IMG/VR virus record: IMGVR_UViG_3300020438_002867
Location: 1 to 23,431 of that record
Length of the DNA: 23,431 bases
DNA from: a virus
Strand: one strand, 5' to 3'
Part shown: in pieces, positions 3,169-19,247 of the stretch
Position numbering within the stretch: position 1 is the stretch's first letter
How the letters are laid out: each line of letters begins with the position of its first letter
Position numbers and translations under genes: made by a program
Notes under the pieces: generated by a model
The model's input: only the letters and a program-made list of their open reading frames with translations
The model's database searches: none
Told to the model about the DNA's origin: nothing

Positions 3169-3384
3169 TTATAGTCTGTAAGTGATCCGACCTTTAGAAA
3201 GATCGTATGGTGACATTTCTACTTTAACTCTGTCAGCCATTACTAATCTTATCTTATGTTGACGCAACTTGCCGCCGGTATAGCAAGTTACAACATGTTC
3301 ATTGTCAAGTTTAACTTTAAACATCTGATTTGGTAAAACTTCTTGTATTTCACCTTCAATTTCAAGTATGCCTTCTTTACTCAT
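3169..3384 (-). CDS. infA: Translation initiation factor IF-1
   Basis: 71 residues, exactly the usual bacterial length. It aligns by eye along the whole IF-1 chain: KEGILEIEGEIQEVLPN, MFKVKLDNEHVVTCYTGGK, then the C-terminal VEMSPYDLSKGRITYRL, nearly identical to the family signature. IF-1 is an OB-fold protein that binds the ribosomal A site on the 30S subunit with IF-2 and IF-3. The ATG overlaps the stop of the AbrB-like gene as ATGA, so translation is coupled. A phage copy could bias initiation toward phage mRNAs or replace the host factor late in infection (inference). Family assignment is very secure. Confidence 0.95.
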   Translation of the reverse strand: MSKEGILEIEGEIQEVLPNQMFKVKLDNEHVVTCYTGGKLRQHKIRLVMADRVKVEMSPYDLSKGRITYRL

Positions 3385-5228: not shown

Positions 5229-6416
5229 TTAAGATACTTTGGCGTACTTATTGTAGCCTGGGCCAGTAGATACCACAAGGGTATATCGCAAACTTCTATA
5301 AATTGCAGCATCTTTACTACTTGGCACGCCGCCCGTAGTTTTTAGTCTTACTTGAATTATTGCGTCTTGTTCTTTTGTTTCTTGGTTATACGCATAAATG
5401 TAGAACAGTTGTTGTTTAGGTACATGTTTAGCTGATATTTCTAATTTAGGAGCAAGCTCTGCAAACCTCTCTACTGTGCTGGTGTATACATCAGATTTAC
5501 CAATAGTTAAAAGCTTTAGTCCTTCCTCATTTTTATTAATGTGGACTTTTAAAAAGTTAATTAGATCTTCAAAGAACGCTCTTTCTTCAGCATCACTGTT
5601 TACTCTATTATTAATTTGCTCTACAGCTTTTGCCATATTGTCATTCATGTCTGAATTAACTTCGCCAGCTTTACGTAGAATCTTAGCTTCTTCAGTTTTA
5701 CCTAAAGAAAATCGATCTTTAATTTCTTTGTTTAATTGTGCAGCCGCATCGTATATAGGTTCTTTAATTTCTTTTATGCCTAAATCACTAAAAAAGTCAA
5801 CTACACTCCTGCCGGTACCTCTTGCTGATTTAACACCGGGATTTTGACCAACTGGCATAAATTTAGCATCTTTGTCATTTGTTTTAAGACTGTATCCTAA
5901 GTGTATAGTTTCAGTTGCGCCTGCTATTTTATGTGTAATAGCTACATCAACTTTGGTACCTTTTTGATCTGCGCCGCCTTGCGCTCCAATTACAATATTG
6001 TCTGCTTTACCGTTTGCAAAAATTTCTTTTAAGTCTAACCCTGCTGTTTTAACTTGTATGTTAGCATCTTTAATAACATTTGCTGTCACAATGTCAATTC
6101 TTGAACTAGGAAATTTAGAGTGTGGCCAATTTTTGATATCTGATAAATGTTCTTTCATTGCAATTTGATTAACAAAAGAAATACTATCGGTCATAGCACT
6201 TTCAAGACCGTCTGCTCTAGTTTTACTGTAAGAAAGATTTTTTAAACTTGACATGATTCTGTTAACATCAGCCGGCTGTGCAGGATTTGGATAATTTTCA
6301 AATGCAGCTGTAACTGCTGCACCCCATAGTGTCTCTGCAATATCACCGATAGTATAGCCTTCATTAAGCTGTTGTTTTTGTTCGTTGAGTGGCTGTTTAA
6401 TTTCAGTGAAACGCAT
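5229..6416 (-). CDS. Late protein, possible capsid-internal protein with nuclease-like core
   Basis: 395 residues, not recognised as a named family. The N-terminus MRFTEIKQPLNEQKQQLNEG contains LNE twice; the T4 prohead protease gp21 cuts after (L/I)xE, and T4 internal proteins carry a short capsid-targeting leader of this kind. An exact late promoter box TATAAATA lies 24 bases before the ATG, as expected for a virion gene. In the middle, GTKVDVAITHK and IHLGYSLKTNDKDAKF resemble a PD-(D/E)xK nuclease core (Asp...SxK), but I cannot confirm the fold. The second half is helical and charged. Inference: a protein packaged with the DNA and injected into the host. A simple late hypothetical remains the alternative. 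Confidence 0.6.
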   Translation of the reverse strand: MRFTEIKQPLNEQKQQLNEGYTIGDIAETLWGAAVTAAFENYPNPAQPADVNRIMSSLKNLSYSKTRADGLESAMTDSISFVNQIAMKEHLSDIKNWPHSKFPSSRIDIVTANVIKDANIQVKTAGLDLKEIFANGKADNIVIGAQGGADQKGTKVDVAITHKIAGATETIHLGYSLKTNDKDAKFMPVGQNPGVKSARGTGRSVVDFFSDLGIKEIKEPIYDAAAQLNKEIKDRFSLGKTEEAKILRKAGEVNSDMNDNMAKAVEQINNRVNSDAEERAFFEDLINFLKVHINKNEEGLKLLTIGKSDVYTSTVERFAELAPKLEISAKHVPKQQLFYIYAYNQETKEQDAIIQVRLKTTGGVPSSKDAAIYRSLRYTLVVSTGPGYNKYAKVS

Positions 6417-6439: not shown

Positions 6440-6447
6440 TATTTATA
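6440..6447 (-). promoter_or_regulatory. T4-type late promoter box
   Basis: TATAAATA on the minus strand, an exact match to the T4 late promoter element, 24 bases upstream of the ATG at 6416. It overlaps the last codons of the bilin reductase gene. Confidence 0.6.
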
Positions 6448-7129
6448 CGATTTTAGGAAACAACATGTCTGTGCAAAACTTGTCTACATCAGCTTCGTCT
6501 AGTCCTAAACTTTTCATTGTCCGCGGAGTATGTGGATTCTGTTGCTGATTATGACAGTAATAGTTTTGTGCGGCAATAACTTCGTCTCTGTTGCCGTAGC
6601 CTGTAAACTCACCTACTTCGTCAAAGTATGCACGTAAGTTGTTTTGTGCTAGTTCTATAATCGCAACTGCTTCTTCTTCTGTGTTTACATTGCCTGCGGC
6701 CAGCATCTTGTCAGTAAAAATGTTGGTTGCCCATTCTGGCAGTTGTCGTTGCTTCTTAGGGATAAAGTCTGCGACTGCTTCTTTGTAGCCGTCAATCATA
6801 GGATGATCAAATGTAGAACTTGCTGAAAAGTCATGAAAGGCACCTGTCATTTTAGTCTTGCCTGCAATAACGTCAAAGCCGTATATTGGGCCATCGTTGT
6901 TAAGTACAGGAAACACGCATACGTGCATCATCCATAAACCTTTAGAGTCACGTGCATCTACAACATCAATATGCGCTCTACGAACATCGTTGTTCCGCCA
7001 TACACGATTAATCCACAAATTGTTATTAAAATAGGCAAGACCCGGTTCATCAAATTCTGTTGCATTTTCTTCAAAAATATTAATAATTTCATCTTTACAC
7101 TCTATTAGTCTATCCCAAATTACACTCAT
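6443..7129 (-). CDS. pcyX: Ferredoxin-dependent bilin reductase, PcyX-type
   Basis: 228 residues, normal for ferredoxin-dependent bilin reductases (PcyA, PebA, PebS, PcyX). Family core: GLWMMHVCVFPVLNNDGPIYGF, with His69 and Asp86 at positions matching the catalytic His88 and Asp105 of PcyA; then VIAGKTKMTGAFHDFS, YKEAVADFIP, and the C-terminal VDKFCTDMLFPKIV. These enzymes reduce biliverdin IXalpha using ferredoxin electrons; viral PcyX makes phycoerythrobilin, while PcyA makes phycocyanobilin. The gene directly follows heme oxygenase (2-base gap), which supplies the substrate. The subtype is inferred from the likely non-cyanobacterial phage background; PebS is the alternative, and sequence alone does not settle the product. 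Confidence 0.85.
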   Translation of the reverse strand: MSVIWDRLIECKDEIINIFEENATEFDEPGLAYFNNNLWINRVWRNNDVRRAHIDVVDARDSKGLWMMHVCVFPVLNNDGPIYGFDVIAGKTKMTGAFHDFSASSTFDHPMIDGYKEAVADFIPKKQRQLPEWATNIFTDKMLAAGNVNTEEEAVAIIELAQNNLRAYFDEVGEFTGYGNRDEVIAAQNYYCHNQQQNPHTPRTMKSLGLDEADVDKFCTDMLFPKIV

Positions 7130-7131
7130 GT

Positions 7132-7671
7132 TTATTTACACTCATCCATTTGTTGAAATAATTTTGTAGCAAAGTCAAAGCATATCTTAGCTTCATCTGC
7201 CATACTATCATTTGTTTTTGCTCTGATAGCTTCTTTAATTTTTTCTTGATCTCCGTCGAATTGATAAACACGCCCTTGTCCAGGTACACGTTTAGCAATC
7301 ATTTGTCCTCCACTTAAATCACCCATATGCCTTACATAGATATGTGCCATAAGTTTGTTAGGGTCATCTTTGATTGACATTATGTGATTCATATATTCTT
7401 TTACAACAGGAAGTAAAGGGGGTTGATTAGCATTGCCTATTCCCCAAAGCTCTTGATAGTCTTCATGTATTGCTGGTGCCCGTCTAATAGGCAAGTCGTC
7501 TAATAAACCTAGTGCCATAGCAAACATTTCAACAATGTTATATTGCGGGTGCTGATTAAAAAGAAAAGTAGCATAGCGTTCTTCCGATATGCCGCCAAGT
7601 AATTCTTTTACAAAGGCTTGCCTTTCTGCATTTTTATGATGTTCCCATGTGAGCTCTTTAAGGTTAGACAT
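7132..7671 (-). CDS. ho1: Heme oxygenase (biliverdin-producing)
   Basis: 179 residues. It opens heme to biliverdin IXalpha, CO and Fe2+ with ferredoxin or another reductant. The proximal heme ligand is seen in WEHHKNAER (His12, HxxAE pattern), and the distal helix motif GDLSGGQMIAKR at 117-128 carries the conserved Asp118 and Gly pairs. The length is shorter than plant-type HO1 (about 240) because the C-terminus stops soon after the last core helix. The ATG lies one base after the clpS stop, and the bilin reductase follows, so clpS-ho1-pcyX form one unit. Released iron could also matter in an iron-poor ocean (inference). Confidence 0.92.
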   Translation of the reverse strand: MSNLKELTWEHHKNAERQAFVKELLGGISEERYATFLFNQHPQYNIVEMFAMALGLLDDLPIRRAPAIHEDYQELWGIGNANQPPLLPVVKEYMNHIMSIKDDPNKLMAHIYVRHMGDLSGGQMIAKRVPGQGRVYQFDGDQEKIKEAIRAKTNDSMADEAKICFDFATKLFQQMDECK

Positions 7672-7974
7672 TTATTCCTCTTCTATTTTTACCTGCAAAG
7701 GAAATCCAGCATCACGTGCCCTATTGACAGTTTCGATACCTTTCATCTCTGCTATTTCGTAGTTATACGTTCCAACAACTACTGAGTCTTCATTATGAAT
7801 TGTCATAGTTAAATATTCAGCTCTTTCGTGTGTATGCTTAAACACTGTTGTCAATATCTCTATTACAAACTCTACTGGTGTAAAGTGATCGTTGATCATT
7901 ATAACATTGTACTTTGGTGGAATCAAATTTGTAATTTCAATTTTTTCGTCGATTACAACTTCTGCTTCTGACAT
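7672..7974 (-). CDS. clpS: ClpS, Clp protease N-degron adaptor
   Basis: 100 residues, usual length. ClpS binds proteins with bulky N-terminal residues and delivers them to ClpAP. The core is clear: PPKYNVIMINDHFTPVEFVI, ERAEYLTMTIHNEDSVVVG and FPLQVKIEEE. The binding pocket residues Asn28, Asp29 and His60 match E. coli Asn34, Asp35 and His66; Asp36 is replaced by His30 and the gatekeeper Met40 by Val33, which may change the preferred N-terminal residue. A ribosome site AAGGAG lies directly after a terminator-like hairpin (7987-8014). The downstream genes are heme oxygenase and bilin reductase. No clpA or clpP lies in the window, so host ClpA/ClpP would be the partner. Confidence 0.93.
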   Translation of the reverse strand: MSEAEVVIDEKIEITNLIPPKYNVIMINDHFTPVEFVIEILTTVFKHTHERAEYLTMTIHNEDSVVVGTYNYEIAEMKGIETVNRARDAGFPLQVKIEEE

Positions 7975-8024: not shown

Positions 8025-8480
8025 TTACTCAATTTTGCCTTCAATGACTGAACTGTCTTGAATTTCAATCGTTTTAGGCTTCAGTGCTTCCGGCACTTCT
8101 CTTTTTAGGTGTACGTTAAGCATACCTAAGTTTAGAGTGGCACCTTCTACTTCCACATGATCTGCTAGAGTAAACTCTCTACGGAAGTTGCGGCCGCCAA
8201 TACCTTTGTGTAGGTAGTTGACATTTTCATCTCCTTTAGGAGCATTTCCTTCTACTTTTAGAATGTTACCATCTTTAGTAATTTCTAAGTTATCCATACC
8301 AAATCCAGCGACAGCAATACTAATCATGTATTCGTCATCGTTGATTTGTGCAATATTATAGGGTGGGTAACCTTGTGATTTACTATTTGCAAACTGTTGA
8401 TTCAGTTCATTGAACATTCTATCAAAGCCAATAGTTGCTCTGTTGAAGTTGGGTAGGTCTAGAGTTGTTAGTCTTGTCAT
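8025..8480 (-). CDS. Small heat shock protein (Hsp20/IbpA-like)
   Basis: 151 residues, with an N-terminal arm (LDLPNFNRATIGFDRMFNEL), an alpha-crystallin domain from about residue 38 to 130 (YMISIAVAGFGMDNLEIT, YLHKGIGGRNFRREFTLAD, GMLNVHLKREVPE) and a C-terminal IEI motif in KPKTIEIQ, as in bacterial IbpA-type holdases. It keeps unfolding proteins soluble; T4-like marine phages often carry one, possibly as a scaffold helper for virion assembly. A strong ribosome site AAAGGAG precedes the ATG. A late-type box lies about 89 bases upstream, and a terminator follows, so it may be a single-gene late transcript. Confidence 0.93.
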   Translation of the reverse strand: MTRLTTLDLPNFNRATIGFDRMFNELNQQFANSKSQGYPPYNIAQINDDEYMISIAVAGFGMDNLEITKDGNILKVEGNAPKGDENVNYLHKGIGGRNFRREFTLADHVEVEGATLNLGMLNVHLKREVPEALKPKTIEIQDSSVIEGKIE

Positions 8481-8581: not shown

Positions 8582-9706
8582 TTATTTGCCAACAGTTGAT
8601 TTTTCATATACACCATTGTGCGTTTGTGTGCAACGAACAAATGTTGTACACTTACTAAGTTGCTTTAGTTTTAACGCACCAGCGTATGTACAGGTTGACC
8701 TAATACCCCCGAGTACTTCTTGTACGGTATCCGCTACAGATCCTCTGTAGGGTACTAGGACAGTCCTGCCTTCTGATGAACGATAATCTTTCAATCCACC
8801 AAAATGCTTGTCGTTTGCACTTTCACTACTCATGCCGTAGAACTGCACAAACTGTTTTTGTTCAACTTTTCGTTTATGATTTTCTAAATGATCTTGAAAT
8901 TCGTATTCTAATTCATTTGTTTCATAAAACTTTGTAATTACTTCGCCACCGCCTTCATCATGGCCAGCAAGCATGCCACCGAGCATAACAAAATCTGCTC
9001 CAGCTGCAAAGGCTTTAGCGACATCTCCAGGGCAAGTACACCCACCGTCAGCAATAATGTGACCGCCAAGTCCATGGGCGGCGTCCGCACATTCGATAAC
9101 AGCAGATAACTGCGGGTATCCAACACCAGTTTGAATCCTAGTAGTGCAAACAGAGCCGGGACCAATGCCCACTTTAACAATAGATGCTCCACTTAATATT
9201 AACTCCTCTGTCATTTCTCCAGTAACTACATTACCTGCTATAATTACTAAGTTTGGAAACTCTTCTCTTACTTTACTAACATGTTTTGCAAAGTGATCTG
9301 AATATCCATTAGCAATATCCATACACACATATTTTAAGTTATCGTCAACTAATGCTACAACTTGCTGTAGTTTACAATAATCATCGTCACTAGTGCCAAT
9401 GCTCATTGCTACGTTGTTAGTTCGTAAGTAATCATCTGTATTAAAAAAATCAATAAGCTGGTTTGAAGTGTATGTTTTAACTAGACATGTAAAAATGTTT
9501 TGTTTGGCTAATTTATCTGCCATTTCAAACGTACCAACACCATCCATATTACTTGCCATAATAGGAATGCCTTCATAATCTTGTTTACTGTGTCTAAATG
9601 TAAATTTACGATCAAGTCTAACTTGACTACGACTTTTAAGTGTGCTACGCTTTGGACGAATAAGAACGTCCTTGTAATCTAATTTGACATCTTGTTCGAT
9701 GCGCAT
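8582..9706 (-). CDS. guaC: GMP reductase
   Basis: 374 residues. It converts GMP to IMP and ammonia with NADPH. The match to GuaC is strong from the start ([21 protein letters not shown]) through [39 protein letters not shown] and the active loop [13 protein letters not shown] with catalytic Cys187. The reductase-type SNMD and [10 protein letters not shown] segments favour GMP reductase over IMP dehydrogenase, and there is no CBS domain. Relative to E. coli GuaC (347 residues) there is an insertion of about 20 charged residues just before [11 protein letters not shown], in the flap region. It probably recycles host guanine nucleotides. It is co-transcribed with rpsU (5-base gap). Confidence 0.93.
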
Positions 9707-9711
9707 TTTGT

Positions 9712-9984
9712 TTACCTTTTCTTTTTTGCGTGGTATGGTTTAGTAAGTTCTGTTTCCATCTTAGATAGTTTTTTCAACCATCTAGCTCTTGCGGCTGCTT
9801 TTGCTTTTTTTCGCTTCAAGCTAGGTTTTGTATAAAACTCACGCTCACGTAGTTCTTGTAGAATTCCATCTTCTTGAACTTTCTTTTTAAACTTACGTAA
9901 TGCATAATTAAAGTCGCCGTTACGTACTTCAACATGCAAACCTTTATGCTGTGAATCTTTGTTATATGGTTTTTTGCGGATCAT
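9712..9984 (-). CDS. rpsU: Ribosomal protein bS21
   Basis: 90 residues, very basic. The bS21 core is plain: [20 protein letters not shown], then [19 protein letters not shown], then [10 protein letters not shown]. bS21 sits on the 30S platform near the anti-Shine-Dalgarno end of 16S rRNA and affects initiation. Phage-encoded bS21 has been reported from pelagiphages. A host-type bS21 is about 65-75 residues; here extra residues occur at both ends (N-terminal [15 protein letters not shown] and a C-terminal [10 protein letters not shown] tail). A GGAGG ribosome site (AGGAGGACAC before ATG) is perfect. It is the first gene behind promoter 10004-10032. Confidence 0.95.
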
Positions 9985-10003: not shown

Positions 10004-10032
10004 ACTATAGCACAGTTATGTGTTGTTGTCAA
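10004..10032 (-). promoter_or_regulatory. Early-type promoter of rpsU-guaC
   Basis: TTGACA (10032-10027), 17-base spacer, TATAGT (10009-10004). The -35 includes the TGA stop of the upstream gene (10029-10031). Confidence 0.8.
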
Positions 10033-10409
10033 TCATCTTTTGGTAAAAAATTTAAATCATAAATATGATTACTGCTAAGATGTTTGTATATTGATTTATC
10101 AGACTTACTAAACCAATAAGAATTTTGCCTTGCGATTATAAAAGATAGCAACGGACGAAAAAATTCTATTGTATTATCTGTATCAATAATTGTATAGTCT
10201 GCAGATTTTGAAGCAGTAAGCACCCAATTTATTTCATCAGTATCTTGAACTAATCTATCAAACAAATAAAGATTAACATCATTATTATAGTCTGTTAGAA
10301 ATTCCGATTGCAAATGATCAAGTATATTTTTTTCTGGGTAAATTAAAACAATGTTTAATGCGTTGTTGTGTAACACATCTGGGTAGGTAATAATGTTAAT
10401 TTTGCTCAC
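10029..10409 (-). CDS. Hypothetical protein, GTG start
   Basis: 126 residues. It begins with GTG (codons read as MSKINIITYPDV), with AATAGG as ribosome site. It contains a Rossmann-like alternation of strands and helices (ALNIVLIYPEKNILDHL, SADYTIIDTDNTIEFF) but no nucleotide-binding motif. Its overall look is that of a small conserved protein of T4-like marine phages; function unknown. It follows the coiled-coil membrane protein with a 7-base gap. Confidence 0.75.
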   Translation of the reverse strand: MSKINIITYPDVLHNNALNIVLIYPEKNILDHLQSEFLTDYNNDVNLYLFDRLVQDTDEINWVLTASKSADYTIIDTDNTIEFFRPLLSFIIARQNSYWFSKSDKSIYKHLSSNHIYDLNFLPKDD

Positions 10410-10416
10410 TCAGCAC

Positions 10417-12660
10417 CTATTTGTTAAGTTTGTTAAATAGACTATCTTCGCTTTGCTCTGCATTTTGTTGGTATTCATCTTTTTCCCATGGCAATTTATC
10501 TATCTTACCATGTATATATAAGTTTTTGTAGTGTTTTAGAGTCTCTTCTGGATTATCTTCTTTCCATGCTGTCTTAGCATCAACATAGGTTTGATCGTCA
10601 TCTTTTTTATCGTATTCTACTTCTCTAGCTTTAATATCTAGATTAGACTTACGTGGCTTAAAAGTTACGGGTGTAGGACCTATTGGTCCGTTGTCATGTA
10701 TAACTTCTTCTAATTCCTCTTCAGATGTTGTAGCACTTCCTCCGGTGTCCTGCCCGGTATTAGTTTGCTCTTGGGTTTTGTCACTGTTAGGAACTTGTTC
10801 TTCTGCAGGTTCCACATCGCCCCGTCCTGATAGACTTTCCTCATCATCGGCTTCTCTATCTCGTTCATTATGTTCCACATCACCATCTTGTATATCGCTG
10901 TCTGTAGGTTCCACCACTGTTCCATCTATTTCTCCTTTGGTCTGGTCCACTTGTCCATCGTCGTCTTCTCTGGCCACAGCCATTCCGCTGGCAGCGGTTC
11001 CTCCAGGTTGTTCGGTTCCAATGGCAGGTTCCCCATTAGGTCCTTCAACTTTTGATTCCGATCCGGTGTTGTCTCCGTTATCATTTATTTCTTCCTTTTG
11101 TTCCGCAGGCGGCGCAGGAGTGTCAATATTATAAACAGGGTTGTCAATTATACGTTGTGCTCTTGCTCGTTCGTATTCAGCTCTTTCGAGCCGAAGACGT
11201 TCACCGTCGTCATCTTTGGGCTTTCTATTAAAGTCAAAGGTATATTGTGCGGCTATTAACAGTAGAACGGCAAGTGGATCAAACACAAAGATAATAATAA
11301 TAATTACCCAACGTACAGCTTCTTCGAGCATGTTATTGTCTGCTTGTTCGCCATATACAAACTCAGCAATGTATTTGATTGGTCCTACTTCTGCTTCTAG
11401 TTTACGGTACTCCGCTTCTAGTTCTATTTTTTCTTCTGTAAGTGTGTCAATTTCTGTGTTAGCAGATTTGATACGGTCTTGTTGTTCGTCAATGTCTGCT
11501 TCTAATTCTTCTGCATTTGTTTTGTCGCCTAGCTGACTGCGTAATCTTTCTATCAACACTTGTGACTGTGCTACTTGTGCTTCTGCACTCTCGCGTAGTC
11601 TTTGTATTTCATTTCTAGCAGTAGAGATAGAAGGTGATTCTGTTTGGCGTACTTCATCGATCTTAGCAAGCATTGTAAGCTCTCTGTCTTTCAATGCAGG
11701 TATTTGTGTTGTGCGAATATCTTTAACTACTTCCGCTAATCTTGTACGTTCTTCATCTACAGTTGTTGTGGCTCCTTGACGTATATTAGATATTTCTAGT
11801 TGTATTTGTGTTATGCGTGATCGTTGTGCTTCGACCCATTTAGCGAGAGCAGTTCTAGTGTTGCCGCCAAACAGTCCATCACTTGTGACGCCAATGATTG
11901 CTTGTCCTGCACGAATTTGCCCTTGTTCTGTTGATTGTAGTTGGTTAGTAACACGTATAATTTCTTGTTCTATATCTGCAATACTTTGTGTAAGAGGCTG
12001 AGTTGCAGTTGTGTCAGCTTCTAGTGTACTAATCTTTTGTTCATAATCTCTTGCGCTTTGTTCTAAACGCAATACTTCTGCTTGTATGTTAGCAAGCTGA
12101 TCTTCGTATGGTTTAGTTCTTGTGTTATCACTTGCTCTTGCATCTGAGATAATTTGGTTCTGTTGTGCAATGGCAGGATTAATGCGTTCAAATGCTTTAT
12201 CAATGCGTCCTTGTTCTTTATCAATCTGTGCTTGCATAGTCGCATCAGCACCAGTCTCGCTATTTTCTAGTTGTCCAATACGTGTGTTAGCACGAGTAAC
12301 AATAGCGTTCTGTCTTTCAATTTCGCTTGTAATACTAGCTACTCTAGCAATGCTTTCTTCGCTTGCACTTGTTTGTTCAATGTGTGCTTTTGATAGGAAG
12401 CCAAAGATACCCATGCTTGTAATAAACATGAGTACAACAACTGCAATAGAAAGATAACTTTTAAGCCACCACGTTGCTCGTTCCCAGTACTTGTGTAACC
12501 ACACTGCGGTTACAAGTTTTGCTATTTCTAATGTGCCGCCCATTATCATAATAGGTATTGCCGCGGCTGCAAATATAGCTACAAGTCCTGCGACAGAGTA
12601 GTATATTGCCACAGCACTGATGCACAATGCTGTGATTAATGTAAGTATTCCAAAGATCAT
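10417..12660 (-). CDS. Large membrane-anchored coiled-coil protein
   Basis: 747 residues. At least three hydrophobic segments lie near residues 5-30, 32-55 and 68-90; another (WVIIIIIFVF...AVLLLIAAQY) at about 460-490. Between them, residues 95-455 form a long charged coiled coil (EIERQNAIV, EQEIIRVTNQLQ, LEADIDEQQDRI). Inside it, residues 255-279 (IIGVTSDGLFGGNTRTALAKW) resemble the DGxFGxxTxxAL pattern of peptidoglycan-binding repeats. The C-terminal 260 residues are Glu/Asp/Gln-rich, low-complexity and likely disordered. Such coil-containing proteins recur in marine T4-like phages, function unknown. The neighbouring SleB hydrolase points to an envelope or lysis role (inference). Confidence 0.8.
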   Translation of the reverse strand: MIFGILTLITALCISAVAIYYSVAGLVAIFAAAAIPIMIMGGTLEIAKLVTAVWLHKYWERATWWLKSYLSIAVVVLMFITSMGIFGFLSKAHIEQTSASEESIARVASITSEIERQNAIVTRANTRIGQLENSETGADATMQAQIDKEQGRIDKAFERINPAIAQQNQIISDARASDNTRTKPYEDQLANIQAEVLRLEQSARDYEQKISTLEADTTATQPLTQSIADIEQEIIRVTNQLQSTEQGQIRAGQAIIGVTSDGLFGGNTRTALAKWVEAQRSRITQIQLEISNIRQGATTTVDEERTRLAEVVKDIRTTQIPALKDRELTMLAKIDEVRQTESPSISTARNEIQRLRESAEAQVAQSQVLIERLRSQLGDKTNAEELEADIDEQQDRIKSANTEIDTLTEEKIELEAEYRKLEAEVGPIKYIAEFVYGEQADNNMLEEAVRWVIIIIIFVFDPLAVLLLIAAQYTFDFNRKPKDDDGERLRLERAEYERARAQRIIDNPVYNIDTPAPPAEQKEEINDNGDNTGSESKVEGPNGEPAIGTEQPGGTAASGMAVAREDDDGQVDQTKGEIDGTVVEPTDSDIQDGDVEHNERDREADDEESLSGRGDVEPAEEQVPNSDKTQEQTNTGQDTGGSATTSEEELEEVIHDNGPIGPTPVTFKPRKSNLDIKAREVEYDKKDDDQTYVDAKTAWKEDNPEETLKHYKNLYIHGKIDKLPWEKDEYQQNAEQSEDSLFNKLNK

Positions 12661-12702: not shown

Positions 12703-13212
12703 TTAATCTGTCCATCTATAATATATGTGATCGCCTATTTTTCCAACTAATTGTAATGAACTAGCCCACCGTGGGCTAACATATCCTGCGTGATAGTGTG
12801 TTGCACCTTCTGTAAGTCCACGAAACTCTCCGTAATTAATTATTCTGTATGCAGATACTTGTGCCGACTGCCAAGCGTCAGTGTCTTTTGGTTCGTCGGG
12901 TTTCCCATCACAGTACCAACTAAACTGACAACGATTTCTAATAGGAATAGGTTTACCTGTTTTCCAACTTGCCTTATGTTCGCCCTGATATACTACATTA
13001 CACACTGTTTGCGGATAACGAGTATCTTGTACTCTATTAAGAACTACATCTGCAACTGCCATTTGGTCTGCAAAATTTGAGCCCCTAGCTTCATAATAGA
13101 TGTTTAAAGCTAGACAATATTCTTCTGGGTATTCTTCTTTAGCATACAAGTTTTCGCCTAGTGTAACAGTCGCAAAGACGGCTAGTATTCCTGCTATAAA
13201 AAATGTTTTCAT
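12703..13212 (-). CDS. SleB-type cell wall hydrolase (putative endolysin)
   Basis: 169 residues. Residues 1-24 form a signal peptide or signal-anchor (MKTFFIAGILAVFATVTLG). The Hydrolase_2/SleB domain follows: CLALNIYYEARGSNFADQMA with the candidate catalytic Glu41, AVADVVLNRVQD, CQFSWYCDGK, GATHYHAGYVSPRWA and the final GDHIYYRW. SleB-family enzymes are peptidoglycan lytic transglycosylases. With a signal sequence the enzyme could be exported by the host Sec system and would not strictly need a classical holin (inference). It is preceded by a basic protein gene with a 14-base gap and followed by the coiled-coil membrane protein. Confidence 0.88.
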   Translation of the reverse strand: MKTFFIAGILAVFATVTLGENLYAKEEYPEEYCLALNIYYEARGSNFADQMAVADVVLNRVQDTRYPQTVCNVVYQGEHKASWKTGKPIPIRNRCQFSWYCDGKPDEPKDTDAWQSAQVSAYRIINYGEFRGLTEGATHYHAGYVSPRWASSLQLVGKIGDHIYYRWTD

Positions 13213-13226
13213 GATTACCTCTGTTG

Positions 13227-13664
13227 TTAGCGCCGCATGGCGGAGATGTCTTTAGCTTGTGTTGTACCACGCATGACCGGTACAGCATTTGACTTGTGCA
13301 TTGTAGCAATGCCTACAATTAAATCGCCTGTATACTTAGGATGTTCTTTCTTAGGCGCTGTGCCAACACCATCTCCGTGACTAGGAATGTGTGCTGTAGA
13401 ACGATGGTTGACACTAGGTGTTGATACATACTGATTGTTTTTTGTAGCGGGTTTCTTTTTAGGTTTATATTCGCCGCGAGTGTATGCAATATAGTCGTCT
13501 AACGTATCATACTGCGATGAATGGCAATTGATTCTACGCATCTGTTTGTTGTGCGCTCGCCAATCTTGTTCTAGTTTGAGTCGTTGTTTATCTGTAATCT
13601 TTTTTGCCTTACGTTTCTTATAATTAGTAGTTGTTAGGTAAGGACCTACCAGCGACATTGTCAT
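13227..13664 (-). CDS. Hypothetical basic protein
   Basis: 145 residues, rich in Lys, Arg, Thr and His, largely disordered in appearance (YKPKKKPATKNNQ, HIPSHGDGVGTAPKKEH), ending with GIATMHKSNAVPVMRGTTQA. A similar Pro/Lys-rich protein ending in HKSNAVPV is, to my memory, common in T4-like marine phages; its role is unknown. The start is ATG at 13664, or ATG two codons later. GGAG in front is part of the 3' arm of a terminator stem (see 13665-13713). Confidence 0.75.
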   Translation of the reverse strand: MTMSLVGPYLTTTNYKKRKAKKITDKQRLKLEQDWRAHNKQMRRINCHSSQYDTLDDYIAYTRGEYKPKKKPATKNNQYVSTPSVNHRSTAHIPSHGDGVGTAPKKEHPKYTGDLIVGIATMHKSNAVPVMRGTTQAKDISAMRR

Positions 13665-13713
13665 AAAAAAACTCCTGCTATTTGTTACTGTCTATACAGT
13701 ATAACAGGAGTTT
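13665..13713 (-). terminator. Terminator hairpin containing a promoter and the next RBS
   Basis: Arms AAACTCCTG (13713-13705) and CAGGAGTTT (13677-13669) enclose a second stem, TACTGT / ACAGTA (13701-13696 and 13691-13686). A run of seven T follows the stem on the minus strand (13671-13665), directly before the ATG at 13664. The AGGAG of the 3' arm is the ribosome site of that gene. Confidence 0.75.
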
Positions 13714-13726
13714 AGGTGTGTGTCAA
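13698..13726 (-). promoter_or_regulatory. Early-type promoter nested in the terminator
   Basis: TTGACA (13726-13721), 17-base spacer, TATACT (13703-13698). The expected start near 13691 lies downstream of the 5' arm of the outer stem, so RNA from here would leave the ribosome site unpaired. It drives the gene at 13664 and probably the SleB gene. Confidence 0.75.
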
Positions 13727-13735
13727 CCTTTTATT

Positions 13736-14755
13736 TTACAAGCCTGATGCACCAGTACTTGCCCACTCGCGAGCACCATTTGGCAATGTTTGCTCACATG
13801 CTAACTGTGCTACTAGTGTTGTTACGATACCTGCAACAACTGCCGCACAACTCTGTGGAACGATCATAGCACCTGCGGCTTTGTCCATAGATTTAGCAAG
13901 GGTAAATGCAATTGCGTCTGTTAGTATTTGCTTGTTCTTTTTACCAATTGCTTTACGTACATCAGCTGACATCCAAATCAAATCAACAAATGCTCCAGCT
14001 GTTAAATCACATGCTGTTCCCATAGCGGCAGCGCCCACTGTGTCTTTAGCTGCCAAGTATAAGATAGCTGTTGAGCTTAGAGGTGCTGTTGCTGCCGTAG
14101 TAGTTGCCTGACTGCTCGGCTCTGGACGATACAATATGGCTGCAAAAATTGTGCCTAGTGCAACGCTTACACCAATTTGACAGTAGTTGGCTTCTGCCCA
14201 TTCTGCAATAAGTTCGCCAGCATCAACTGCATACTCGCCTACTTCTTCTAGTCCTTGTAGTGCAAGTTTACTACCTGCTTCAATTTCATCCATTGCGGCT
14301 GTAGCTACATTTGCTGTTGCCATTGCGCTTTGGGTTGCGGCGACTTTAGCTTTATTAGCTGTGCTAACAGTTTCCTTTGCGATTGCATTTGCTGTATCTT
14401 CAGCAAACTTAATACCATCTTTAGTAACTGCGCCAGTTGTATCAACAATTACTTTTCCTGCATCTGTAACATTTTTTGCAGCGTCTTTGGCTGCTTTGTC
14501 TGCGGCTTTTTTAGCTGCTTTGGCGGCATCGTCAGCGGCTTTCTTTGCATCTTTAGCAGCTTTGTCAGCGGCTTTCTTAGCGGCTGCGGCCTGTTTGGCT
14601 GCGGCATCTGCTTGCCGTTTTGCTTCTGCTGCCGCTTGATCTGCTGCCTTCTTAGCAGCCTTTGCCGCTTCGTTAGCTACATCGACCGGGTTTGGTATTT
14701 TAACCTTTGGCGGCTTCGGCAATTTGATTTTAGGTTTTTTAATTTTCCAACCCAT
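13736..14755 (-). CDS. Ala/Lys-rich TolA-like protein with membrane segments
   Basis: 339 residues. Residues 1-25 are Pro/Lys-rich (KIKKPKIKLPKPPKVKIPNP). Residues 28-95 consist of repeated Ala-Ala-Lys/Asp heptad-like units (KKAADKAAKDAKKAADDAAK), as in the TolA rod: a long single helix. Residues 195-215 (IGVSVALGTIFAAILY) look like a membrane segment, and another hydrophobic stretch lies near 305-325 (AAVVAGIVTTLVAQLAC). Four Cys residues lie in the C-terminal half. Function is not recognised; envelope spanning or membrane disruption near the lysis gene is possible. Several long antisense frames here are shadows of the repeat. An AGAGATATAAC leader precedes the ATG. Confidence 0.75.
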   Translation of the reverse strand: MGWKIKKPKIKLPKPPKVKIPNPVDVANEAAKAAKKAADQAAAEAKRQADAAAKQAAAAKKAADKAAKDAKKAADDAAKAAKKAADKAAKDAAKNVTDAGKVIVDTTGAVTKDGIKFAEDTANAIAKETVSTANKAKVAATQSAMATANVATAAMDEIEAGSKLALQGLEEVGEYAVDAGELIAEWAEANYCQIGVSVALGTIFAAILYRPEPSSQATTTAATAPLSSTAILYLAAKDTVGAAAMGTACDLTAGAFVDLIWMSADVRKAIGKKNKQILTDAIAFTLAKSMDKAAGAMIVPQSCAAVVAGIVTTLVAQLACEQTLPNGAREWASTGASGL

Positions 14756-14777
14756 GTTATATCTCTCCGTTGTTAGA

Positions 14778-15251
14778 TTACTTTTTTTCCATTAATGCCA
14801 CTGCGGCATTATATGCTTCTGTACTTATTATACCTTCACGTAATAACTTCTGTCTATTGGCTTCGTGCTTTAGAGCAATCTCTTGTTTGCTGCCGCCAAA
14901 GTATGCTACAGCGTGGCCTTCTGCTATCATAATGTCAGTTACTAAGTCGCCATTAGGAGCTCTAAAGTCTCCTAAGATACGTCCAAACTTGCCTTTCATA
15001 TCTTCACCGTGTTTGTTTTCTGTAGTAATCAATTTGGCGCCATCTTTCATAAGTTCTTTTAGTCTTGCTTTTGCAGCTTCGCCAAACAAGTCTTCTACTT
15101 TGTCTCTTGTGCGTGACTCTGGTGTGTCTATACCCATAATACGAACACGTTCGTCTCTAAGTGTTACTCCAAATCCTAGATCAATATCTACATCTACTGT
15201 GTCGCCATCGATTACTTTGACAACTACTACGTCATACTCGTTTTGTTGCAT
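14778..15251 (-). CDS. Staphylococcal-nuclease homologue (thermonuclease)
   Basis: 157 residues, one SNase OB-fold domain without a signal peptide. Active site residues are in place: VIDGDTVDVDI (Asp17/Asp20), VRIMGIDTPESR (Arg37, Asp42, Glu45) and FGRILGDF (Arg91). These correspond to Asp21, Arg35, Asp40, Glu43 and Arg87 of the S. aureus enzyme. It cuts DNA and RNA with Ca2+. Absence of an export signal suggests action in the host cytoplasm, for example on host DNA or RNA for nucleotide recycling (inference). The neighbours are a two-TM protein and the TolA-like protein. GAGGGAAAC precedes the ATG. Confidence 0.92.
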   Translation of the reverse strand: MQQNEYDVVVVKVIDGDTVDVDIDLGFGVTLRDERVRIMGIDTPESRTRDKVEDLFGEAAKARLKELMKDGAKLITTENKHGEDMKGKFGRILGDFRAPNGDLVTDIMIAEGHAVAYFGGSKQEIALKHEANRQKLLREGIISTEAYNAAVALMEKK

Positions 15252-15269
15252 TTTGTTTCCCTCATTGTT

Positions 15270-15611
15270 TTATTCATCTAAGTCTAGTGCTTGATGACCC
15301 CATTCTTCCATCACAAACTCTCCAAACGCTGTTCCAAAGAGCCACATAAGTGTAAGAATTACTCCTACTACGCATATTGTCATTGTCCATACCCAGATTT
15401 GTAGTAGTGGATGTTTGCCTTCTGTCCAATGTATTAATCTTTTAATCTTGTTCTTTAGTCCGTCTAACATAAACTTGCCTACAAACCAACGTAATAATCT
15501 CATTACAATTAATATAGGCGAACTTAGTACATCAAACAATATTAAGAACAGATCAACAGTGATGTCTATAATATTATCAATGTTAAACCATTTGCGTAGT
15601 TTTTCTCGCAT
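15270..15611 (-). CDS. Small two-helix membrane protein
   Basis: 113 residues with hydrophobic segments at about 16-48 (ITVDLFLILFDVLSSPILIV) and 72-98 (IWVWTMTICVVGVILTLMW), a basic stretch between them and an acidic C-terminus. That is the size and shape of a holin, and it sits in the run that leads to the SleB gene, but no sequence family is recognised, so holin is only a suggestion. A late-type box (15638-15645) and GGGCAGGG ribosome site lie in front. Confidence 0.65.
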   Translation of the reverse strand: MREKLRKWFNIDNIIDITVDLFLILFDVLSSPILIVMRLLRWFVGKFMLDGLKNKIKRLIHWTEGKHPLLQIWVWTMTICVVGVILTLMWLFGTAFGEFVMEEWGHQALDLDE

Positions 15612-15637
15612 TTGCCCTGCCCTTAATGTACTACGTT

Positions 15638-15645
15638 TATTTAGT
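15638..15645 (-). promoter_or_regulatory. Late-promoter-like box
   Basis: ACTAAATA on the minus strand (core TAAATA of the T4 late box), 27 bases before the ATG at 15611 and just after the terminator of the upstream gene. Chance matches are common in AT-rich DNA. Confidence 0.3.
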
Positions 15646-15653
15646 CACAAATA

Positions 15654-15675
15654 AAGGGGCGTCGAAACGCCCCTT
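15654..15675 (-). terminator. Intrinsic terminator with UUCG loop
   Basis: Nine-base stem AAGGGGCGT / ACGCCCCTT closed by TTCG on the minus strand (15675-15654), followed by TATTTG. It ends the outer-membrane protein transcript. Confidence 0.85.
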
Positions 15676-15700
15676 GGTGCCGTGTTTTTATTTTTAGTTA

Positions 15701-16081
15701 TTAGAAACTAAACGTTGTCATTAATTTGATTTCGCCGCGTGTTTCTGCTTCTAGGTCATATGATGTCGTTGCTTCTAATTCAACGCTGTCTGTCAACCCA
15801 TAAGTTACACCAAAATCAATCACTGGAAGATGATCAAACTCATTATCAAGTGTTACTTTATTGTCATTGTCCCAAATATTCAACATTGTGCCCATTGTGA
15901 AGTTAGCCATGCCAAATGCATAACCTAATTCTGGCTCAACTGTCATTGTTGTTGTTTCTGCATCCACCATATGTGTTGCTACAACGTCTGTGTTAAGAGT
16001 AACACCAGTTGTACCTAAGTCAACTGCTCCTGCTACTGTTGCTGATGCAGCCAATGCTGCCGCGATAAATACTGTACGCAT
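15701..16081 (-). CDS. Small outer-membrane beta-barrel-like protein
   Basis: 126 residues. I choose the ATG at 16081 because it starts a clean Sec signal peptide (MRTVFIAAALAASATVAGA, cleavage near residue 19); the in-frame ATG at 16132 lies inside a terminator stem. The mature part alternates polar and non-polar residues in roughly ten-residue strands (TTTMTVEPELGYAF, ANFTMGTMLNIW, SVELEATTSYDLEAE) and ends in phenylalanine (KLMTTFSF), the signature for BAM-assembled outer-membrane proteins. Six to eight strands fit. Possible roles: superinfection exclusion, receptor masking or nutrient uptake (inference). It is followed by a strong terminator, so it is a one-gene unit. Confidence 0.7.
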   Translation of the reverse strand: MRTVFIAAALAASATVAGAVDLGTTGVTLNTDVVATHMVDAETTTMTVEPELGYAFGMANFTMGTMLNIWDNDNKVTLDNEFDHLPVIDFGVTYGLTDSVELEATTSYDLEAETRGEIKLMTTFSF

Positions 16082-16114
16082 TATAATAATATACCTTTCA
16101 AATTGTACTGTCGT

Positions 16115-16143
16115 AAAAAAGGGCAAGTTCACGCTTGCCCTTT
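16115..16143 (-). terminator. Intrinsic terminator of the pseudoazurin operon
   Basis: Stem AAAGGGCAAG / CTTGCCCTTT (ten bases, six-base loop) at 16143-16118, with a run of six T on the minus strand (16120-16115). It lies between the 71-residue gene and the outer-membrane protein gene. Confidence 0.85.
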
Positions 16144-16233
16144 GACTTTCTATTTACACTAGTAATCTATGTTGTTGTTCACTTTAGAGCGTGTTTTAAA
16201 AAGTTTACACACATTTGTTACTTATTTACAACA

Positions 16234-16449
16234 CTATCCGCCCGGTACAAATCCTTTAGGTCTAAACCAAACTTTTTGGTCGTGTAATTTACCTAGTAGA
16301 TCTTGTATTTCTATCATCTCTTGATGTAGTTGTGTCGATACATTACCTTCGGCAATAGCCATACCTCTGCGTCCAGCCTTTGCTCTTAGTGCTGATTCAA
16401 TAACTTCGATGTCACGAATTGATAATTCAAAATTATTATTTGGTTTCAT
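16234..16449 (-). CDS. Hypothetical protein
   Basis: 71 residues, helical and charged (FELSIRDIEVIESALRAKAG), ending in VWFRPKGFVPGG. Not recognised. It overlaps the gene before it by 14 bases and is the last gene of the pseudoazurin operon. Downstream, 16144-16233 holds no gene; it carries two TGTAAATA boxes and then the terminator. Confidence 0.65.
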   Translation of the reverse strand: MKPNNNFELSIRDIEVIESALRAKAGRRGMAIAEGNVSTQLHQEMIEIQDLLGKLHDQKVWFRPKGFVPGG

Positions 16450-16645
16450 AGTCTGTACTCAATCCTGAGGGGTTATACTGTCCGCCATTATAGCCAGGAT
16501 AGGTGTTGTCCTCTACCCCAAAGTTGCATGATGCAACAATAAACAAAAATGCTATTGAAGCATACGTTGTACGTTTGCTCCACAAGATGAAACCGTCAAA
16601 TGCAATTTCAGCTTGCTTCTGTGCATCTTCTGTTACCTTGTTCAT
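16436..16645 (-). CDS. Small single-TM protein
   Basis: 69 residues from ATG 16645, chosen because it overlaps the previous stop as ATGA; a longer frame to 16663 exists but lies inside the upstream gene. The N-terminal helix MNKVTEDAQKQAEIAFDGFI is followed by a membrane segment (TTYASIAFLFIVASCNF), then a Gly/Tyr/Asn-rich tail (YPGYNGGQYNPSG). The ASC before the tail resembles a lipobox-like end of a signal peptide, but the long N-terminal part argues against a lipoprotein. Confidence 0.6.
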   Translation of the reverse strand: MNKVTEDAQKQAEIAFDGFILWSKRTTYASIAFLFIVASCNFGVEDNTYPGYNGGQYNPSGLSTDYETK

Positions 16646-16803
16646 TTCTCTAAACCTATACACGGAATAAGAATGGACTGTTTACAGTTGTCTGGATAAG
16701 CAATTGCCGATCCAAGAATAGGCATCCCTACCATACCAATAATAATGATTAAGAAAGCCCAACCTAAACCTTTGGTTGTGCAATATTGTGTTTGTTCGCT
16801 CAT
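16642..16803 (-). CDS. Small membrane protein (53 aa)
   Basis: 53 residues from ATG at 16803, which overlaps the pseudoazurin stop (CTATGA). Sequence MSEQTQYCTTKGLGWAFLII continues into a second hydrophobic part (GMVGMPILGSAIAY) and a Cys-bearing end (DNCKQSILIPC). No separate ribosome site; translation is coupled on both sides. Function unknown. It may anchor or partner the copper protein (inference from coupling only). Confidence 0.65.
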   Translation of the reverse strand: MSEQTQYCTTKGLGWAFLIIIIGMVGMPILGSAIAYPDNCKQSILIPCIGLEK

Positions 16804-17219
16804 AGATCAGCCAACAATGCTTTTAGTTTTTTCTTTGACTTACCTTTTACTTTGGCACCTGAGATATCGTTGTCTCCATCACCTACAACTACAATACCAA
16901 TCATTCCCATTGATTTGTGCGGGGAACATTGATATAGATATACGCCTGGTGTATCAAATGTCATTTCAACTTCTTTGTTTAGTTTTGATTTACGTGGTGC
17001 TTTCCAACCATCTGGACCTGCAATAAATTCTACATTGTGACCTTTTGCTGTTGGTACCCAAGTAATTGTGTCGCCTACGTCAATGCGTGTGATATCTTCT
17101 GAGTACACCATCTTGGCGCCGTCATCACGTTTGTTTAACATTTCGACTGTAGTGTCAGCTGCAAAAGCTGTAGTTGAGAGAGTAGCCAGTACTGCTACTG
17201 TTAATAGTAAGTTTTTCAT
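16800..17219 (-). CDS. Pseudoazurin-like blue copper protein
   Basis: 139 residues from ATG 17219, chosen for the AAAGGA ribosome site and the signal peptide MKNLLLTVAVLATLSTTAFA (cleaved before ADTT). The type 1 copper site is complete: His61 in KGHNVEF, Cys98 and His101 in YLYQCSPHKSMGM, and Met106. The order and spacing C-x2-H-x4-M, and the start VEMLNK, match pseudoazurin rather than plastocyanin or amicyanin. It acts in the periplasm as a one-electron carrier, in bacteria often to nitrite or nitrous oxide reductases or the respiratory chain. It has its own promoter and heads a four-gene unit. Confidence 0.88.
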   Translation of the reverse strand: MKNLLLTVAVLATLSTTAFAADTTVEMLNKRDDGAKMVYSEDITRIDVGDTITWVPTAKGHNVEFIAGPDGWKAPRKSKLNKEVEMTFDTPGVYLYQCSPHKSMGMIGIVVVGDGDNDISGAKVKGKSKKKLKALLADL

Positions 17220-17250
17220 TTTATTTCCTTTGTGTATGTGTTGTATATTA

Positions 17251-17279
17251 TATATAGCACGTATTTTATCGGAAGTCAA
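17251..17279 (-). promoter_or_regulatory. Early-type promoter of the pseudoazurin unit
   Basis: TTGACT (17279-17274), 17-base spacer, TATATA (17256-17251); one base off consensus in each hexamer. Confidence 0.7.
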
Positions 17280-17310
17280 CTAAATTCAGTGCGCTAAAGT
17301 GTAGCAGATA

Positions 17311-17336
17311 AAAGAAAAGCACCCGAGGGTGCTTTT
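17311..17336 (-). terminator. Intrinsic terminator of the tmRNA gene
   Basis: Stem AAAAGCACC / GGTGCTTTT (17336-17315) with a four-base loop, followed on the minus strand by CTTTTA. It lies directly after the coding piece of ssrA. Confidence 0.85.
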
Positions 17337-17339
17337 CCT

Positions 17340-17507
17340 GCTATGTTTGGTAACAAGGTCTAACTACCCCGTAACAGCCTAAGCTGCTAATGCCATCTCT
17401 GGCGCATAATTGTCATTTGCAATTATAAGTTTCGTTCGCGTTAACCGAGCTTACATCCGGGCAACTCCACTCTCCTATTAACTAACAGTCGATCCTATTT
17501 CGACCCC
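17340..17507 (-). ncRNA. tmRNA coding piece
   Basis: Starts with the acceptor strand GGGGTCG, followed by AAATAGGATCGAC, the D-arm analogue of tmRNA; then P2, a GC-rich region likely forming the first pseudoknot (GCCCGG...CGGTTAACGCG), and the tag frame. The 3' end is placed before the terminator. Confidence 0.8.
17379..17420 (-). other. tmRNA proteolysis tag frame
   Basis: GCA at 17420-17418 is the resume codon; thirteen codons read ANDNYAPEMALAA, then TAG. With the alanine carried by the tmRNA itself, the tag is AANDNYAPEMALAA. The ANDN start and ALAA end are those of typical tags recognised by ClpXP and the SspB/ClpA systems. Confidence 0.92.
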
Positions 17508-17561
17508 ATCAAAAGCACACCCTTCAACTTGCAACCAACCTGCTCTTCCAGGATGTACTTA

Positions 17562-17622
17562 TGGTGGAGTCGCCGGGTACCGCCCCCGGGTCCTGTCTAG
17601 CGTTTGAATTGCTTCAACGTTA
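17562..17622 (-). ncRNA. tmRNA acceptor piece
   Basis: Ends in CGACTCC-ACCA, with CCA encoded. The T-arm reads CCGGG-GGCGGTA-CCCGG: five perfect pairs and a seven-base loop that lacks the usual TTCGA sequence. The 5' end is estimated from the promoter at 17629-17659. Confidence 0.8.
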
Positions 17623-17628
17623 CAAGTA

Positions 17629-17659
17629 TATTTATAACACAAGTAATACTAGATGTCAA
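17629..17659 (-). promoter_or_regulatory. tmRNA promoter, overlapping early and late elements
   Basis: TTGACA (17659-17654), 17-base spacer, TATAAA (17636-17631). The -10 is embedded in TATAAATA (17636-17629), an exact T4-type late box. Confidence 0.75.
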
Positions 17660-17841
17660 CTTCTATTTCAATAATAGATGTTTGTTCACCTTTCTTTTTT
17701 AGTCTAACCATTTCTGGATCTTCATCGATACACCAGAAATATAAAAGAAGTACTATATTTGTGAGTATTCGTTTATATGGATAGGAGAAGTCCTAAACAC
17801 GATAAACCAACAACAAATTCTATCTTTTCAAATTTAGTCAT
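17649..17841 (-). pseudogene. Small membrane protein gene split by a +1 shift
   Basis: An ATG at 17841, after GGGAGATAAG as ribosome site, opens MTKFEKIEFVVGLSCLGLLLSI and stops at 17773. The +1 frame, open from about 17786, continues (YKRILTNIVLLLYFWC, then IDEDPEMVRLKKKGEQ, ending IEIEVDI) to TAG at 17649-17651. That second part has no start codon of its own before its middle, yet its composition looks coding. Joined by one skipped base after TCC, the product would be about 66 residues with two membrane segments. Possible reasons: a sequencing or assembly indel, a decaying gene or programmed frameshifting. The tmRNA -35 overlaps its last codons. Confidence 0.45.
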
Positions 17842-17860
17842 ATCTTATCTCCCTAATTGT

Positions 17861-17879
17861 TATGTTATATTATAACATA
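17861..17879. repeat. Perfect palindrome over a promoter -10
   Basis: TATGTTATA-T-TATAACATA: nine-base arms around one central base, covering the TATAAT at 17869-17874. Its shape is that of an operator for a dimeric repressor. Confidence 0.5.
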
Positions 17880-17897
17880 GTTTGATGAGTTTGTCTA
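17869..17897 (-). promoter_or_regulatory. Early-type promoter of the small membrane gene
   Basis: TAGACA (17897-17892), 17-base spacer, TATAAT (17874-17869). The -35 includes the TAG stop of the upstream gene (17895-17897). Confidence 0.7.
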
Positions 17898-18110
17898 CCA
17901 TCCTTGTCTTTTTATTTTTAAAGAATTTTTTGTAGATCGAACTGCGTTCATTAAACGTAGTGTTCTTGAAGATTTATGGTTTGAACTCCAGGCATTTTTT
18001 GTTTGGAAATTCTTTGCATATTCGCACTCTTGTGAAAATTTTTCAGCGAGCATTTTTTCTAAATAATATAGATCTTCTTCGCTAAGTGATTCTATTCCAG
18101 TAGTAGACAT
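17895..18110 (-). CDS. Hypothetical basic protein
   Basis: 71 residues. An acidic N-terminal helix (SLSEEDLYYLEKMLAEKFSQ) is followed by a basic half (SSRTLRLMNAVRSTKNSLK, IKRQGW). Not recognised; a small DNA- or RNA-binding protein is possible from charge alone. The ribosome site is AAAGGGG before TTGCAAC-ATG, and a late-type box TGTAAATA lies 28 bases upstream. Confidence 0.6.
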   Translation of the reverse strand: MSTTGIESLSEEDLYYLEKMLAEKFSQECEYAKNFQTKNAWSSNHKSSRTLRLMNAVRSTKNSLKIKRQGW

Positions 18111-18137
18111 GTTGCAACCCCTTTCGTCTAGTGACAG

Positions 18138-18145
18138 TATTTACA
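18138..18145 (-). promoter_or_regulatory. Late-promoter-like box
   Basis: TGTAAATA on the minus strand (7 of 8 to the T4 late box), 28 bases before the ATG at 18110. Confidence 0.35.
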
Positions 18146-18177
18146 CTAAACTAAAAGTTGAGGCGCTAACATGATAC

Positions 18178-18384
18178 TTAGAAAAATATTGTCTTTATGT
18201 TGCCTGCTATTATCATAAAACATGTAAAAACGTGCAAGACGATCCAGAATGTTCTAGCTGCCAATGCACGTTTTACACTTGTTTGCGAAATTGGAAGAAA
18301 TGTTGGTTCGTCGTCATCGGTTATTCCTATTGGCATTCCAATGGTACGAGCCCATGTCTTAATCCACTTTCGCTGTCCGGACAT
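18178..18384 (-). CDS. Small single-TM protein
   Basis: 68 residues. The N-terminal part contains GMPIGITDDDEPTFLPISQ, a stretch I remember from conserved small proteins of T4-like marine phages; then a membrane helix (FWIVLHVFTCFMIIAGNI). Function unknown. The ATG shares one base with the end of the preceding gene (18384), so it is translationally coupled in the HAD unit. Confidence 0.7.
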   Translation of the reverse strand: MSGQRKWIKTWARTIGMPIGITDDDEPTFLPISQTSVKRALAARTFWIVLHVFTCFMIIAGNIKTIFF

Positions 18385-18569
18385 TACATTGCGTTCTTTT
18401 TGTCTTGAATTTCTGCTCTACGAGTCTTAGATAATTTACCTAAGTCACCTAGTGCTTTACGTGCTCTTGTAGCAGCGGCTTTAACACCCTTGCCTTCGAA
18501 CGTGTCGTGCTCTGTAAGGTATTGTTGAAATGCTTGAACAATTTGTTCATGTTGTGTTTGATCACTCAT
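18384..18569 (-). CDS. Small basic protein, histone-H1-like composition
   Basis: 61 residues. An N-terminal acidic helix (EQIVQAFQQYLTEHDTFEG) precedes KGVKAAATRARKALGDLGKL and RRAEIQDKKNAM. The Ala/Lys/Arg-rich helix recalls histone H1-like tails and suggests nucleic-acid binding, unproven. A good AGGAG lies nine bases before the ATG. Similar proteins occur in T4-like marine phages, as far as I remember. Confidence 0.65.
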   Translation of the reverse strand: MSDQTQHEQIVQAFQQYLTEHDTFEGKGVKAAATRARKALGDLGKLSKTRRAEIQDKKNAM

Positions 18570-18574
18570 AATTT

Positions 18575-19177: not shown

Positions 19178-19213
19178 ACTGCCTCTTGTGCCTATATTGT
19201 TAATTTATACTGT

Positions 19214-19242
19214 ATTATACAATCAAATAAAGTGTTTGTCAA
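19214..19242 (-). promoter_or_regulatory. Early-type sigma70 promoter, perfect consensus
   Basis: TTGACA (19242-19237), 17-base spacer, TATAAT (19219-19214), both exact. It drives the HAD gene. It lies five bases after the PAAR stop. Confidence 0.85.
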
Positions 19243-19247
19243 CCACT

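Follow-up and report, generated by a model that had tools for sequence, protein, structure and literature searches.

A two-enzyme bilin cassette behind clpS in a probable jumbo-phage lineage with a likely alphaproteobacterial host

Phages of non-photosynthetic bacteria that make plant-like pigments are an open puzzle in the published literature, and the same question is raised by a locus in a 23,431-bp IMG/VR virus record, which was analyzed over its whole length and is called here the window. Genes for a heme oxygenase (HO) and a ferredoxin-dependent bilin reductase lie there behind clpS. The hemO-pcyX core of such cassettes is already known, also from the isolate Pelagibacter phage Mosig EXVC030M (MT647606). 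The hemO-pcyX and hemO-pcyA/X-valaS cassettes reported for pelagiphages and metagenomic phages (PMC11480375, Nat Commun 2024) resemble the one studied here in that HO adjoins PcyX, in the residues Asp55, His69 and Asp86, in the 5-aminolevulinate (ALA) synthase that is found in relatives of the window, and in being carried by a non-cyanobacterial phage. In contrast, the lineage of the window has a probable jumbo-phage carrier, fixed clpS, hsp20, guaC and S21 neighbors, and an FdxA-type ferredoxin in its relatives. In that study the contigs were assigned to pelagimyophages by gp13, and neither jumbo phages nor ClpS appear in its main text (PMC11480375). Our contribution is therefore the fixed HSP20-clpS-HO-PcyX block, its jumbo-phage carrier, and the ALA synthase and FdxA genes of the relatives. 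In the reading that we favor, with a probability of about 0.6, the window holds a two-enzyme bilin cassette of a jumbo myophage, probably of an alphaproteobacterial host, and the bilin is the likely selected product.

The heme oxygenase and the bilin reductase

On the minus strand the genes for Hsp20 (8025..8480, a small heat-shock protein recognized with Pfam), ClpS (7672..7974, 100 aa, ClpS 1.6e-24), HO (7132..7671, 179 aa, Heme_oxygenase 2.5e-21) and the bilin reductase (6443..7129, 228 aa, Fe_bilin_red 4.9e-15) follow each other head to tail; in the window ORFs no base separates clpS from the HO gene, and 2 bases separate the latter from the reductase gene. The initial annotation had described ho1 and a bilin reductase with catalytic His69 and Asp86 behind clpS; the ORFs, the 2-base gap and both residue numbers are exactly as it gave them, and the family matches are far beyond chance, so that the arrangement is confirmed with the active-site residues intact. 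ClpS, the N-degron adaptor of ClpAP, keeps the equivalents of E. coli Asn34, Asp35 and His66. The three genes are under purifying selection, with a median dN/dS of about 0.10 for PcyX, the lowest of the three, 0.19 for HO and 0.22 for ClpS.

The proximal His12 and the distal-helix motif G-D-x-S-G-G are kept in 28/28 HO sequences, that of Mosig included. Although the protein is short, its AlphaFold model is confident (pLDDT 94.8), and the best PDB matches are solved heme oxygenases. By sequence and model the gene encodes an HO-1 type heme oxygenase, which is predicted to cleave heme to biliverdin IX alpha, Fe2+ and CO.

The reductase was matched to the PDB with phmmer, and its best hit was 5owg, the structure of PcyX_EBK42635 (4.8e-80, 272 bits), while the PcyA structures gave about 1e-13 or weaker (best PcyA 55 bits). 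The tree called for by the initial annotation was built with PcyA from cyanobacteria and cyanophages, and only its PcyX/PcyA split was used, the PebS branch being very long. In it, the window reductase, its relatives, Mosig and 5owg form one clade (support 99/97) apart from PcyA and PebS, which bears out the earlier assignment to the PcyX type. Asp55, His69 and Asp86 are invariant in 83/83 PcyX sequences, and Asp55 occupies the place of PcyA Glu76, a residue that none of the 83 has. Asp55 is PcyX-specific and is absent from the enzyme of freshwater phage CB_2, which makes phycocyanobilin (PMC11480375). Within the clade 5owg pairs with Mosig (100/100) and the window enzyme lies outside this pair, so that the characterized enzyme stands for the Mosig side of the clade; from these features we infer that the window reductase most likely converts biliverdin to phycoerythrobilin.

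A cassette of cyanophage type, which would uphold phycobilisomes in a cyanobacterial host, would use the same two reactions as ho1 and pebS/pcyA of cyanophages P-SSM2, P-SSM4 and P-TIM40, but it is scarcely credible here. Both enzymes are closest to those of Mosig (52% identity for the reductase, 46% for HO) and are only 24-32% identical to cyanophage-type genes, the values for HO being 28-32% against one cyanophage and marine single-cell viruses with cyanophage-like HOs. Furthermore, ho1 and pebS of P-SSM2 are not adjacent, the cyanophage hosts have phycobilins, the window has a tmRNA of alphaproteobacterial type, and none of the window genes searched was recognized as a photosynthesis gene. 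With the reductase clustering with neither PebS nor cyanobacterial PcyA, a cyanophage bilin cassette is refuted for practical purposes, in agreement with the earlier claim of a non-cyanophage origin.

A cellular source of PcyX was also considered and rejected, the gene being phage-exclusive in these searches: outside phages, the genome collection yielded only two short contigs of 7-8 kb binned to unrelated MAGs, and none was found in plasmids. These two contigs, in public MAGs of Pirellulales and Halobacteroidaceae, are most likely mis-binned phage fragments.

Carrier phage, host and conserved block

The longest related record, of 357,559 bp, encodes a terminase with 58% identity to those of PA5oct-like Pseudomonas jumbo phages, 50-52% to those of Agrobacterium phage Atu_ph07 and Sinorhizobium phage Phosso, and 34-36% to that of Mosig; PcyX and HO were not detected in the PA5oct-like and Atu_ph07/Phosso phages. 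The window shares 17 of its 34 ORFs with this 357-kb phage and 6 of 34 with Mosig, and in six further large IMG/VR records with the block, 49-69% of the ORFs are common to the 357-kb phage and 10-24% to Mosig. Because the contigs resemble the 357-kb phage and its terminase is of the PA5oct-like type rather than of the Mosig type (about 35%), the carrier is probably a jumbo-phage lineage. The jumbo terminase and genome size were seen in the 357-kb relative, no terminase being recognized in the 23-kb fragment. As group markers, the Mosig terminase had no match in the fragments and matched only in the 357-kb record, and the 1172-aa protein of the window had no phage match. With only a minority of its ORFs shared with Mosig, which served as the reference, the window was not taken to come from a Mosig-type pelagimyophage. 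Of the "SAR11-type phage" proposed in the initial annotation, what stands is that Mosig, the only cultured carrier found, infects SAR11; the phage type does not.

The window encodes a permuted tmRNA (17288..17658, minus strand; RF01849 alpha_tmRNA, 103 bits), and since it is of the alphaproteobacterial type the host is probably an alphaproteobacterium; by analogy with Mosig, SAR11 is a plausible host of the jumbo lineage. Of the other host indicators named earlier, bS21 (9712..9984, minus strand) is present by Pfam, while the pseudoazurin, scoring 102 bits where the cut-off is 110, is better called pseudoazurin-like. A complete infA gene, for translation initiation factor IF-1, lies at 3169-3384 of the window (minus strand; 103 bits, cut-off 61); with bS21, this single phage fragment thus encodes two translation factors. 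The 357-kb relative has a 24-tRNA array as well as a permuted tmRNA.

A scan of IMG/VR found 265 stretches encoding relatives, of which the best 80 were kept, a sample biased to close relatives. HO adjoins PcyX in 74 of these 80, and in 74/74 the four genes HSP20-clpS-HO-PcyX occur together (one ClpS, that of L069, was found by tblastn). In the 74 contigs the commonest spacing is -4 for both ClpS-HO and HO-PcyX, which is consistent with an ATGA-type overlap and translational coupling. Hsp20 is a constant neighbor upstream of clpS and guaC a near-constant one (8582..9706, minus strand; GMP reductase/IMPDH family, by Pfam); the block includes guaC in 72 contigs and S21 in 65. Two further conserved block proteins are encoded on the minus strand of the window, one of 126 aa (10029..10409; from the ORF list and the block comparison) and one of 747 aa (10417..12660), whose N-terminus is common to several jumbo phages and Mosig. 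One contig (L008) ends at PcyX, and five short ones (L010, L013, L014, L018, L019) carry PcyX without HO beside T4-like replication genes (DNA polymerase, UvsW); their PcyX is 85-86% identical to that of the window, an apparent transfer between phage lineages, and the absence of HO there counts against the reading as a two-enzyme cassette. In some relatives GroES/GroEL or DnaK is inserted upstream of the cassette. With these chaperones and with ClpS and Hsp20 as neighbors, the cassette may be expressed within a host-takeover or stress block.

Mosig has the HO-PcyX pair too, with the two genes overlapping, as well as its own ferredoxin, S21, Hsp20 and a permuted tmRNA. It differs in its genome of 141 kb, in lacking ClpS at the cassette and in having a neck-protein gene downstream.

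Supply genes and the use of the bilin

In the reaction sequence that we propose, HO would open heme, of host origin or boosted by the phage, to biliverdin, with Fe2+ and CO set free, and PcyX, taking electrons from reduced ferredoxin, would carry out a four-electron reduction of biliverdin that most likely yields phycoerythrobilin; phage ALA synthase would supply the precursor, and phage FdxA presumably the electrons. An ALA synthase above the equivalog cut-off of TIGR01821 (NCBIfam) was found in 8/33 IMG/VR records, including the 357-kb genome, and in only 1/14 control genomes. A phage ferredoxin, for which the initial annotation had suggested a search, is present as an FdxA-type ORF in 9/23 large IMG/VR records, again including the 357-kb genome, and its identity was verified in three of them by tblastn and in another two with equivalog NF045490 (152-157 bits, threshold 135); the 23-kb window itself contains neither gene. 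In the fragments FdxA was seen 8 times against 5.3 expected, and ALA synthase 7 times against 6.1, if the genes were near-universal; given the fragment lengths, these counts fit genes carried by nearly every member. Near-full-length FdxA is otherwise rare, with two cases among 50,697 phage records. Against a link with the bilin, those two records, of 328-378 kb, have an FdxA 57% identical and no PcyX or HO match; against a donor role, about 89 kb separate FdxA from the cassette in the 357-kb genome, and the ferredoxin may work in other reactions. Neither flavodoxin genes nor a Fer2 ferredoxin were found in the relatives, except for one Fer2 in Mosig. In Mosig no ALA synthase was found; this phage has a ferrochelatase gene upstream of HO, at a distance of five genes, and in place of FdxA a 2Fe-2S ferredoxin unrelated to it.

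These supply genes bear on the main rival reading, iron or heme control, in which the HO step is selected, Fe2+ is provided to phage iron enzymes and host heme is lowered, and PcyX merely clears biliverdin off HO. An iron-supply role has been proposed in print (PMC11480375), and in cyanophage P-RSM6 an HO alone lies exactly between nrdA and nrdB, the genes for ribonucleotide reductase subunits A and B (13164-19772), which hints at iron supply there. The Mosig cassette comes after three 2OG-Fe(II) oxygenases, and two genes of this type lie downstream in the window; local clustering of these oxygenases was nevertheless discarded as support for iron release, given that it holds at Mosig but that the large jumbo records show no enrichment of them up to 5 kb from PcyX. 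PcyX is also under tighter constraint than HO, and some contigs carry it without HO. Moreover, ALA synthase in the relatives and ferrochelatase in Mosig would lead to more heme and return the iron into it, the wrong direction for iron release, while an added ferredoxin would supply the reductase. We consider iron control unlikely, although it has the best claim among the alternatives, and because the relatives bring ALA synthase and FdxA, the bilin rather than the freed iron is likely to be selected.

A host bacteriophytochrome or bilin-binding globin could also take up the bilin as its chromophore, which would reset light responses. In this regard, PcyA of phage CB_2 is able to provide a phytochrome with a working chromophore, and in Bradyrhizobium ORS278 the genes hemO-pcyA-alaS stand next to bphP (PMC11480375). 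Against a photoreceptor chromophore, a search of 24-35 phage records for a bilin-binding partner found no gene of the PHY, GAF or phycobilisome families, in line with the earlier claim that the bilin has no phycobilisome to serve; this negative result also weighs against the reading that we favor. SAR11 is not known to have bacteriophytochromes, and we regard the chromophore use as improbable. Under the preferred reading of bilin production, our guess is that the bilin may act as a soluble small molecule (as antioxidant or photoprotectant, or bound as ligand by a host protein) and not as an antenna pigment.

That the main carriers found in our search belong to a jumbo lineage, with a fixed block and its own precursor enzyme and ferredoxin, tips the balance away from iron scavenging and towards deliberate bilin production. 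A wider proposal, which we put forward tentatively and at slightly under even odds, is that two unrelated non-cyanobacterial phage lineages, whose hosts are without phycobilisomes, have each built a near-complete, self-supplied phycobilin pathway, comprising a tetrapyrrole-synthesis enzyme, HO, PcyX and an own ferredoxin, the first and last parts being non-homologous between the lineages. If so, phage-made phycoerythrobilin would have a role unrelated to photosynthesis. FdxA, ALA synthase, HO, PcyX and ClpS can be tested together.

Variable genes around the cassette

Between HO and PcyX some relatives carry a tryptophan halogenase, a nitrilase or a 2OG oxygenase; in L072-L074 (L072 8484-10004), L065, L003-L005, L042 and L044 the insert encodes a protein of the tryptophan-halogenase family (1.7e-89), a carbon-nitrogen hydrolase or both. 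Directly behind pcyX there is a variable slot, which in the window holds a gene for a 395-aa protein (5229..6416, minus strand) with the N-terminus MRFTEIK and a low-confidence AlphaFold model (pLDDT 59). In most loci (L003-L082) the slot protein begins with MR[FY]x[ED][FI]K or similar, and the bodies belong to several families without detectable similarity (in the profile comparison 22 and 34 were related, as were 27 and the window, with 28 apart); the shared start may be a leader that targets the capsid, and the bodies its changing cargo. Downstream of pcyX, about 40 IMG/VR loci encode CsgF, CsgG, a curlin-like repeat protein, a FecR-domain protein and a CHASE2-adenylate cyclase, with examples of these downstream genes at L033:12964-13899, L076:12142-12609 and L061:8288-10333.
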